Origin: a bacterium
GTDB taxonomy: Bacteria; Acidobacteriota; Polarisedimenticolia; J045
DNA length: 51,739 bases
Direction: 5' to 3'
NCBI GenBank assembly: GCA_021372775.1
Contig: JAJFTU010000196.1
Location: 1 to 51,739, forward strand
Shown here: piece after piece, positions 1,427-41,962 of the stretch
How the letters are laid out: each line of letters opens with the position of its first letter
How positions within the stretch are numbered: position 1 is the first letter of the stretch
The notes under the pieces: generated by a model
The model's database searches: none
The model's input: the letters and a program-made list of their open reading frames with translations, nothing else
What the model was told of the DNA's origin: nothing
Position numbers and translations under genes: made by a program

Positions 1427-3391
1427 TCAGCGGCGCAGCTTGTCGAGCAGGCGCGCGGCGACCGCGCCGGAACCCAGGCCGATCTCGTCCAGGAGCTGCT
1501 TGCGCGAGCCGTGGGCGACGAACCGGTCGGGAATGCCGAAGATCAGCGGCGGCGCGGCGAGGGGAATCCCCTCCTCGACGCAGGCCTCGCAGACCGCGGC
1601 GCCGAAGCCGCCGCGGACCGTGTTCTCTTCGAGCGTCGCGACGAGCCGCGCCCCCGGCGCGAGCCGCCGCAGCATCGCGACGTCGAGCGGCTTCACGAAC
1701 CGCGCGTTGACGACCGTCGGCGAGTGGCCGGCGGCGCGCAGCTCCTTCGCCGCGGCCTTCGCCGTCTCGACCATCGTCCCGACCGCGAGGAGCGCGACCG
1801 TCCCGTCCCCTTCCTCGAGCAGCTCCCAGGAGCCGATCGGCAGGACGCGCGGCTCGCGGGTGCGCGGCGCGGGGGAGTTGTCGCGCGGGTAGCGGATCGA
1901 GAACGGGCCGTCGGTCCGCGCGTAGGCCGTCTCGAGCAGGTCGGCCAGCTCGTCGGCGTCCTTCGGCGCGGCGACGACCATCTCCGGGATCAGCCGCATG
2001 TAGGTCAGGTCGTAGCAGCCGTGGTGCGTCGGCCCGTCCGCGCCGGCGATGCCGCCGCGGTCGAGGCAGAAGACGACCGGCAAACGCTGCAGGGAGACGT
2101 CGTGGAAGATGTGGTCGAAGGCGCGCTGCAGGAACGTCGAGTAGATCGCGCAGAACGGCCGCATCCCCTGCGTCGCCATCCCCGCGGCGAACGTCACCGC
2201 GTGCCCTTCGGCGATCCCGACGTCGAAGAACCGCTCGGGGAACTTCTCCTGGAACTTCGGCAGCCCGGTGCCCGGGCACATCGCGGCGGTGATCGCCACG
2301 ACGTCCTTGCGCCGTCCGGCGAGGTCGACGAGCGCGTCGCCGAAGGCGTTGGTGTAGGAGGGCGGCGTCGTCGCGTCGACCGGCTTCGGCGCGGCGAGCG
2401 GCTTCCCCGTCGCCGGGTCGAACGGCGTCACGCCGTGCCACTTCAGCGGGTTCGCCTCGGCCGGCGCGTAGCCCTTTCCCTTGTGGGTCAGGACGTGCAG
2501 CAGCACCGGCTCGCTCGCGCTCCGCTCCTTGACCTTCTTCAGCACGCCGACCAGCGCCGCCATGTCGTGGCCGTCGATCGGCCCGAAGTAGTCGAAGCCG
2601 AGCGCCTCGAACAGCGCGCCGGGAACGAGGGCGCCCTTGACGCTCTGCAGCGTGCGCCGCGCCATCTCCCCGACCGGCGCGCCGACCTTCGGCGGCAGCT
2701 TGCCGAGGACGCGCGCGATCTCCCCCTTCATCCGCTGGTAGTAGGGGTGCGTCGTCAGCGTCGTCAGGTAGTGGGCGACGGCGCCGACGTTCGGCGAGAT
2801 CGACATCGCGTTGTCGTTGAGGACGACGATGAGGTCGCGGTGCGAGGCGCCGGCGTTGTTGAGCGCCTCGAAGGCGAGCCCGCCGGTCATCGAGCCGTCG
2901 CCGATGATCGCCACGACCTTCCGCCCGCGCTCCCCCTTGAGGTCGCGTCCGGCGGCCATCCCCAGCGCCGCGCTCGGCGCGGTCGAGGCGTGCCCCGCGC
3001 CGAAGGCGTCGTATTCGCTCTCGTCCCGCTTGAGGAAGCCGGACATGCCGTCGTACTGGCGCAGCGTCGGGAAGCGGTCGCGCCGGCCGGTCAGCATCTT
3101 GTGCACGTAGGCCTGGTGACCGACGTCCCAGACGAGCAGGTCGCGCGGCGTGTCGAAGACGTAGTGCAGGGCGATCGTCAGCTCGACGACGCCGAGGCTC
3201 GACGCGAAGTGGCCGCCGTGGTGCGCGACCGACTTGATCAGGAACTCGCGGACTTCGGCCGCGAGCTCGACGAGTTCCGGAACGGCCAGGCCGCGCAGGT
3301 CGGCCGGGTCGTTGATCGAGGCGAGCCGCTCGACGCGTCCGCCGTCCTTCGCGTCGGCGCGCGCGCCGCCGCCGACCGCCCCGTCCTCCAT
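1427..3391 (-). CDS. dxs: 1-deoxy-D-xylulose-5-phosphate synthase
   Basis: First enzyme of the MEP isoprenoid pathway: condenses pyruvate and glyceraldehyde 3-phosphate using thiamine diphosphate. 654 aa, normal for the family. The frame is open further upstream, across nuoI, but the ATG at 3391 has a GGGAG Shine-Dalgarno and yields the correct N-terminus (SINDPADLRGL, then HHGGHFASSLGVVELT). The TPP-binding motif GDGSMTGG...NDN is present, and DRGGIAGADGPTHHG of the transketolase pyrimidine domain sits in the second half. The C-terminal transketolase domain is complete. It follows nuoI by 41 bp and precedes pepA by 25 bp. Together with dxr and uppS at 48-51 kb, it shows that isoprenoids are made by the MEP route here. 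Confidence 0.97.
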   Translation of the reverse strand: MEDGAVGGGARADAKDGGRVERLASINDPADLRGLAVPELVELAAEVREFLIKSVAHHGGHFASSLGVVELTIALHYVFDTPRDLLVWDVGHQAYVHKMLTGRRDRFPTLRQYDGMSGFLKRDESEYDAFGAGHASTAPSAALGMAAGRDLKGERGRKVVAIIGDGSMTGGLAFEALNNAGASHRDLIVVLNDNAMSISPNVGAVAHYLTTLTTHPYYQRMKGEIARVLGKLPPKVGAPVGEMARRTLQSVKGALVPGALFEALGFDYFGPIDGHDMAALVGVLKKVKERSASEPVLLHVLTHKGKGYAPAEANPLKWHGVTPFDPATGKPLAAPKPVDATTPPSYTNAFGDALVDLAGRRKDVVAITAAMCPGTGLPKFQEKFPERFFDVGIAEGHAVTFAAGMATQGMRPFCAIYSTFLQRAFDHIFHDVSLQRLPVVFCLDRGGIAGADGPTHHGCYDLTYMRLIPEMVVAAPKDADELADLLETAYARTDGPFSIRYPRDNSPAPRTREPRVLPIGSWELLEEGDGTVALLAVGTMVETAKAAAKELRAAGHSPTVVNARFVKPLDVAMLRRLAPGARLVATLEENTVRGGFGAAVCEACVEEGIPLAAPPLIFGIPDRFVAHGSRKQLLDEIGLGSGAVAARLLDKLRR

Positions 3392-25663: not shown

Positions 25664-25800
25664 GCACCACTCCGTTGCGCGTGCGATCAACGTTCGCCTC
25701 GCGCGGAAAGGCGCGGCGAAAGCCGTCCTCGCGCCGTCCGCCTCGCGCGGCGAGCGCCGCGAAAGCCGTCTTCGCGCCGCGCATCCGCGACCGCGCGCGG

Positions 25801-41303: not shown

Positions 41304-41439
41304 GGGACGCCTCCACGAAATGAGGTTATCCTCGACCGTCCGTCGAGCCAACCGCGCCTCCGGCGCGCAACGTTCCGGGCCGGCAAACCGAACCGTTCCC
41401 TTTCGTAAACTAGGCCAATTGGGCACGAAGGGGGTTCGT

Positions 41440-41456
41440 CGCGCCAAAGTGGCGCG
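41440..41456. promoter_or_regulatory. Inverted repeat upstream of the sigma-54 promoter
   Basis: CGCGCCA-aag-TGGCGCG, perfect 7-nt arms, 40 bp upstream of the -24 box; a CCAATTGG palindrome lies at 41415-41422. Either could bind an activator or the divergent mutL regulator; no family can be named. Confidence 0.35.
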
Positions 41457-41495: not shown

Positions 41496-41511
41496 TGGCA
41501 CCTCACTTGCA
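41496..41511 (+). promoter_or_regulatory. Sigma-54 (RpoN) -24/-12 promoter
   Basis: TGGCACCTCACTTGCA matches the sigma-54 consensus TGGCAC-N5-TTGCW at every core position, with correct GG-to-GC spacing. The predicted start is about 41522, 30 nt before the ATG at 41552. It requires an enhancer-binding ATPase not encoded in the window. Confidence 0.8.
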
Positions 41512-41551
41512 TAAAGAGGGGCAACCCCCTTTTCCATAGCGAGGACACGAG

Positions 41552-41911
41552 ATGTACATCCCTTGGCTGCTCAAAGAGAAGTCGCTCGACGATTTCGTCG
41601 ATCACGACGGCGAAACGCGCCTGTCCCAGCTGATGGAAGATCCCGGCACGGCTCGGCCGGAAGAGGACGTGTACAAGAAGGAGCTGGTCCAGATCACCCG
41701 TCAGGCGCTCGAAGAGCTGCCGGAACGGGAGCGTCTGATCCTCCTCAAGCGGTTCGGCGTCATGGGCAACGACGAGATGACTCTCGAAGAGATCGGCAAG
41801 ATCTTGGGCCTGTCGCGCGAACGCGTCCGCCAGCTGGAAAAGGAAGCCAAGATGAAGCTCCGCGAGCGGCTGGGCACCCTCCGCACGCAGCTTCAGCTCA
41901 ACCTTGGCTGA
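41552..41911 (+). CDS. Stand-alone sigma-70 region 3.2/region 4 protein
   Basis: 119 aa. Residues 10-40 (SLDDFVDHDGETRLSQLMED, then a DPxxDPEE-like stretch) resemble the region 3.2 'finger' that enters the RNA polymerase active-site channel. Residues about 46-108 are a full region 4 with ALEELPERERLILLKRFGV and the -35-binding helix-turn-helix MTLEEIGKILGLSRERVRQL. Regions 1, 2 and 3.0 (-10 recognition and melting) are absent, and the upstream DNA does not encode them. The ATG has GAGG at 8 nt. It is monocistronic, with a sigma-54 promoter upstream and an intrinsic terminator downstream. It may act with a separate region-2 protein or modify the housekeeping holoenzyme; this is inference. Confidence 0.82.
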   Translation: MYIPWLLKEKSLDDFVDHDGETRLSQLMEDPGTARPEEDVYKKELVQITRQALEELPERERLILLKRFGVMGNDEMTLEEIGKILGLSRERVRQLEKEAKMKLRERLGTLRTQLQLNLG

Positions 41912-41934: not shown

Positions 41935-41962
41935 AAGGCCCGCCGTCCGGCGGGCCTTTTCA
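41935..41962 (+). terminator. Intrinsic terminator of the sigma-region-4 gene
   Basis: AAGGCCCGCC/GGCGGGCCTT, 10 bp stem, 4 nt loop, then TTCATTT on the plus strand. Confidence 0.85.

Follow-up and report, generated by a model that had tools for sequence, protein, structure and literature searches.

A stand-alone sigma factor C-half is encoded behind a conserved sigma-54-type promoter in the window, the whole 51,739-nt stretch of DNA that was analyzed (GCA_021372775.1, genome G000, contig JAJFTU010000196.1, forward strand 1-51,739). The conserved C-half behind a sigma-54 switch, together with an N-half in two families that carries the same type of switch where it is readable, points to a two-piece, signal-switched sigma factor. 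We lean, somewhat beyond even, toward a sigma-54-driven C-half that joins RNA polymerase and completes the N-half as a two-piece sigma in f6 and f10, two families other than that of the window (f1). The evidence is sequence-based throughout and comes mostly from metagenome assemblies. The features of the locus are as follows.

41411 to 41427, plus strand: a weaker second palindrome, TAGGCCAATTGGGCACG, candidate activator site, 29 bp from the first in the window.
41440 to 41456, plus strand: palindrome CGCGCCAAAGTGGCGCG, lying 56 nt upstream of the -24 element, candidate activator site, kept in 9 of 9 same-family loci.
41496 to 41511, plus strand: -24/-12 element TGGCACctcacTTGCA (equal to TGGCACCTCACTTGCA), matching TGGCAC-N5-TTGCW throughout; predicted transcription start at about 41522.
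41542 to 41545, plus strand: AGGA, likely ribosome-binding site read from the sequence, 6 nt ahead of the ATG.
41552 to 41911, plus strand: stand-alone sigma C-half, 119 aa, ATG start (ORF call, Pfam, NCBIfam, alignment, AlphaFold), consisting of the N-terminal MYIPWLLKEK, the region 3.2 finger (about residues 11-35), region 4 (residues 52-105), and a C-terminal tail.
41935 to 41958, plus strand: intrinsic terminator, a computed stem-loop of 10 pairs followed by the T-rich TTCATTT.

Sigma70_r4 is the sole Pfam domain above the cut-off in the C-half (residues 52-105, E 3e-19). Pfam finds no region 2, so the protein is not a complete sigma-70 factor of groups 1-4, and it lacks the receiver domain that is fused to a sigma-like domain in PhyR-type proteins. 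The best NCBIfam match is RpoS, which scores far below the RpoS cut-off and aligns only at the C-terminal model positions 177-275. In alignments, the segment preceding region 4, SLDDFVDHDGETRLSQLMEDPGT, matches the region 3.2 finger found in RpoS/RpoD-type sigma factors. A first-pass annotation of this DNA had described a 119-aa protein with only a finger and region 4 and without region 2, on which Pfam and NCBIfam agree. It placed the gene behind a TGGCAC-N5-TTGCW sequence matched at every core position, which is seen at 41496-41511, and ahead of a terminator, which was recovered as the 10-pair stem-loop just beyond the annotated span of 41496-41911.

In the AlphaFold model of the C-half, region 4 is predicted with confidence and the finger is disordered, which is to be expected of a finger modeled apart from polymerase. 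The best short PDB matches to the model are region 4 of sigmaA, including the complex with -35 DNA (1ku7, rmsd 1.7). Residues R89, E90, R93, and Q94 align with the -35 contacts of sigma-70 and are invariant in 19 orthologs, which favors a promoter-reading role for the C-half. Alignment shows that the HTH of region 4 is invariant and that the finger segment is kept in all orthologs. An invariant HTH would also suit a simple DNA-binding regulator that recognizes -35-like sites and represses or activates from there, outside RNA polymerase, but the finger has no DNA-binding role and is never lost, and we regard this explanation as very improbable. The end of the C-half (window 41890-41911) is FSL[A/T/S], conserved in most f1 and f7-f10 members, and could be a protease recognition tail. 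Two further short or chimeric proteins with region 4 and without region 2 are encoded in G000 at C360:3169-3372 (L007) and C402:8019-8225 (L005); one is a 144-aa open frame with a finger-like segment, and the other has a different N-terminal part.

Stand-alone orthologs of 117-119 aa with a conserved start codon occur in 32 of the 41 genomes of the window's class. A profile search of 396 Acidobacteriota genomes confined the stand-alone members to this class, within which families f4, f5, and f12 have none. The locus is conserved in f1, f8, f9, f10, and f11, where the C-half gene is divergent from mutL and the downstream order is a lytic transglycosylase gene, a DUF177-like gene, rpmF, plsX (in some), and fabD onwards. 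Within f1 the C-halves are 87-93% identical, compared with 53-57% for the neighboring MutL, and dN of about 0.03-0.08 against dS of about 0.6-1.9 gives a dN/dS of about 0.05. Thus, the C-half is under strong purifying selection. In a tree built from finger and region 4 sequences, 28 C-halves form one clade (82/93) that is sister (95/90) to the RpoS-like sigmas of the class; the clade support is moderate because there are only 101 columns. The C-half therefore traces back to the C-terminal portion of an RpoS-type factor. Its full-length sister (for example, G000 C33:4968-5663) shares the same finger and region 4, but has regions 2-4 and no sigma-54 promoter.

These comparisons bear on two other explanations. 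The missing region 2, and nothing else, speaks for a truncated relic or a mis-called ORF of a full sigma gene, and we give this almost no credence. No region 2 lies upstream of the C-half ORF, the gene has its own promoter and terminator, and orthologs persist in nine families at constant length with a dN/dS near 0.05. A local truncation or pseudogene was rejected on the same grounds, since the C-halves form a single clade whose sister is the full-length RpoS-like sigma. Full-length sigmas in relatives, which the first-pass annotation would have taken as a sign of truncation, were not seen at the orthologous genes; the homologs are stand-alone and of the same length. The second explanation is a decoy, in which the C-half would mimic region 4 of the RpoS-like sigma, draw off an anti-sigma factor or adaptor, and free the RpoS-like sigma by a PhyR-like logic. 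The sister relationship fits a decoy, as does the presence of the RpoS-like sigma in nearly every genome of the class. Against it, no anti-sigma factor was identified, the DNA-contact residues and finger are retained, and f4, f5, and f12 have the RpoS-like sigma without a C-half. We consider the decoy improbable.

The -24/-12 element of the window C-half begins 56 nt upstream of the ATG as a perfect TGGCAC-N5-TTGCA. The window genome contains 6 matches to TGGCAC-N5-TTGC versus 5 in the reversed control, so a match in a single genome is not above chance. Conservation places the element above chance: GG-N10-GC is present in 30 of 30 orthologous promoters from nine families (f1, f2, f3, and f6-f11), which are related by descent and are not independent trials, against a background of P = 0.0013 per 68-nt window (about 0.9 Mb of the same genomes, both strands). 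These 30 promoters come from the 32 genomes with an ortholog, with those of G003 and G006 left out. The background pools for the site statistics include the promoters themselves, which makes the estimates conservative. The conserved form is [TCG]GG[CT]A[CGT]-N5-TTGC, located 40-60 nt from the start codon except in L094 (107 nt), and it stays in place even though the C-half proteins diverge to about 40% identity. Lack of conservation of the element would have counted against the first-pass reading, and the reverse was observed. The -24/-12 element is absent from all 14 full-length RpoS-like genes of the class that were compared. Second, more divergent C-half copies (L096, L108, and L109; about 61-66% identical) are without a -24/-12 element.

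The promoters carry conserved palindromes upstream. All nine same-family (f1) C-half promoters have a palindrome of the TGCGCCAnnnTGGCGCA type 56-59 nt before the -24 element, and in eight of the nine a second, weaker palindrome lies exactly 18 bp further upstream; the window differs, with 29 bp. The combined pattern (palindrome, 30-60 nt, GGCAY-N5-TTGC) gave 8 matches in 12 genomes of the family and 0 in the reversed control, with 7 of the 8 at the C-half gene and 1 at a flgB promoter. A weight matrix was built from f1 only and then applied to the other families. Palindrome pairs were found 30-32 bp apart in most f8-f10 promoters (about -145/-114 to -187/-156) and 29 bp apart in f3 and in one f2 promoter. 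By this matrix there is no good pair in the f6, f7, and f11 C-half promoters, where sites are weak or absent. The palindromes are usually paired and their spacing is family-specific, as would be expected of enhancer-binding protein sites, and they are read as candidates for such sites. The half-site TGCGCCA is presumably akin to NtrC-type sites, a likeness that we take as a lead only.

The flgB promoter match (L167, G023 C69:6402-6468) has the same palindrome and -24/-12 layout and lies beside a gene for a response-regulator-type enhancer-binding protein; it reflects either chance or a related activator. A palindrome with a -24/-12 element is also present in L343 (local 2956-3033; G034 C1:1212455-1212532) ahead of a signal-peptidase-like gene and of an ORF that may encode a short peptide, and may be a second target or a chance match. 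A whole-regulon search of 41 genomes with a looser palindrome and -24/-12 pattern returned mostly noise at about the control level.

Following the suggestion in the first-pass annotation, rpoN (PF04552) was sought and was not found in the G000 assembly, even though its stated completeness is 99.6%. The gene is present in 38 of the 41 class genomes, and G000 encodes 16 strong sigma-54 activators with enhancer-binding protein AAA domains. The missing rpoN is probably an assembly or binning gap. A position just beyond the left end of the window was considered because rpoN lies 40-70 kb from the C-half gene in several genomes; this was dropped because synteny with G014 stops near window position 25,800. 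No conserved activator gene adjoins the C-half gene or the RpoS-like gene, and the activator was not identified from gene neighborhoods.

Candidate partners for the C-half were found in six genomes of two families, f10 (G032, G033, G034, G035, and G036) and f6 (G026). These N-halves are sigma proteins of about 260 aa that contain regions 1.2-3.1, stop just ahead of the finger, and have no region 4, and the N-half terminus coincides with the beginning of the C-half. They belong to a different sigma lineage than the C-half, their genes are unlinked to the C-half gene, and no conserved neighbors were found at their loci. The clearest case is the closed chromosome of G034 (f10), where 70 of the 74 listed region 2 places were checked and 1 ends before the finger. 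This N-half has 257 aa, in which regions 1.2 and 2 and one half of region 3 are followed by a natural stop, and no region 4 remnant was found downstream in any frame. The G035 N-half (L377, G035 C144:7877-8530) has an intact-looking promoter and a 26-residue in-frame gap around region 1.2/2.1, which is either decay or an assembly error. Several extra full-length group 2-like sigmas are encoded in f10 genomes (L335, L336, L337, and L338), and the N-halves may derive from this expansion.

The f10 N-halves carry promoters of the same type as the C-half. All five f10 N-halves, including that of G035, have [CT]GGCCC-N5-YTGC shortly upstream, at 28-52 nt in the genes with a clear start; the G026 N-half begins off its contig, and the promoter counts cover the five f10 genes only. 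None of six full-length paralogs checked has a -24/-12 element. The G034 N-half promoter contains TGCGCCAAATTGGCGCA, a palindrome identical to the consensus of the matrix built from f1 C-half promoters. The match is strong in G033 and only moderate in G032 and G036, and the upstream-site statistics for two N-half promoters come from simple shuffles (P about 0.005).

The window genome gave a different result. The first-pass annotation had raised a split sigma with a region-2-only partner in the same genome, and no such protein was found among the 18 region 2 ORFs of the incomplete G000 assembly; every intact one carries region 4. Two of the ORFs are fragments of a single ECF gene that is broken by contig ends, and another is an ECF with a degenerate region 4. 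Candidates fetched with an N-half profile from the other f1-f5 genomes either were full-length or ran off a contig end. A separate region 2 protein exists in f10 and f6 and was not seen in the window's genome or family; the idea of a split sigma gained complementary halves, five of them with a readable -24/-12 element, and lost its local partner. C-halves are found in nine families and recognized N-halves in only two, which means that the general partner cannot be an N-half.

This distribution lends some weight to the best rival, which concerns the window's own family in particular: a competitor or anti-sigma factor that holds the polymerase site for regions 3.2/4, so that region 4 of RpoD or of the RpoS-like sigma is displaced. 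It would lower or redirect their transcription under a sigma-54 signal, and an N-half would be unneeded. N-halves are unrecognized in 7 of the 9 families that have a C-half, and the conservation of the finger and region 4 and the strong conservation of the C-half as a whole also speak for a competitor. In contrast, invariant -35-contact residues are needless for a pure blocker, and N-halves with sigma-54-type promoters are left unexplained. We judge a competitor possible but unlikely.

The two-piece sigma reading can be set out in steps. An activator bound at the upstream palindromes would answer some signal, and sigma-54 RNA polymerase would transcribe the C-half gene only then. The C-half would join RNA polymerase in trans, its region 4 docking on the beta flap and reading the -35 element and its acidic finger entering the RNA-exit/active-site channel. 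On its own, region 4 usually has only a weak affinity for core polymerase, which counts against this step. Other points against the reading are the different lineage and unlinked loci of the N-halves, the missing rpoN of the G000 assembly, the lack of an identified activator, the weak or absent palindromes of f6, f7, and f11, and the moderate palindrome matches of two N-half promoters. In f6 and f10 the C-half would complete the N-half (regions 1.2-3.1) to form a two-piece sigma factor. In the window's family it may work with a resident sigma by taking the region 4 site, or its partner may be unrecognized or unassembled. A more specific version is a mosaic sigma-70-type factor, made of an N-half of one lineage and a C-half of the RpoS lineage, with the break between the sigma3 domain and the finger and with both halves switched by one enhancer-binding protein through sigma-54. 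We hold this version as a serious but tentative proposal, somewhat short of even. If it is true, the activity of the assembled holoenzyme would form an AND gate under a single sigma-54 signal, and in genomes that lack the N-half the C-half could work with other sigmas.

Among cellular two-subunit sigmas, the literature searched yielded only SigO-RsoA (PMC8103513). It has region 4 and region 2 on separate proteins; here there is likewise a region 4 protein and, in two families, a distinct region 2 protein. The SigO-RsoA halves are smaller proteins whose genes share an operon, whereas the genes here are unlinked, most genomes have only the C-half, the split separates region 3.1 from region 3.2 in sigmas of the group 1-3 type, and both types of half have sigma-54-type promoters. 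Phage T4 gp55/gp33 pairs a region 2 sigma lacking region 4 with a separate flap-binding protein, and the T4 flap binder is not a region 4 homolog and does not read -35 DNA. The T4 pair resembles the system described here in its division of labor between a region 2 sigma and a flap binder and differs in that the HTH of the C-half is intact.

The first-pass annotation did not recognize a sigma-54 to sigma-70-fragment cascade. Cascades from sigma-54 to a complete sigma-70-family factor are already known. In Borrelia burgdorferi a sigma-54 promoter that needs an enhancer-binding protein drives a complete sigma in the RpoN-RpoS cascade (PMC3037356), and Pseudomonas hrpL is sigma-54-dependent and also encodes a complete sigma factor (PMC5263251). 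Those systems share with the C-half a sigma-54 promoter driving a sigma-70-family protein, which here is also of RpoS descent. They differ in that their products are complete, whereas the C-half lacks region 2 and no -24/-12 element precedes the full-length RpoS-like genes of the class. The unusual part is the half sigma as the product. An RpoS-descended half sigma under class-wide sigma-54 control with complementary halves in some families has no prior description in the open-access literature searched.

Cellular split sigmas are known from essentially one example, and here a half sigma is kept through most of a class, behind the kind of promoter that otherwise serves only tightly gated genes and with natural complementary halves in some families. 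The C-half is a natural test of which sigma domains need to be on one chain and of whether the finger and region 4 are able to work when supplied in trans. It also bears on the ways in which a sigma-54 signal can reach sigma-70-type promoters when no complete new sigma factor is made.
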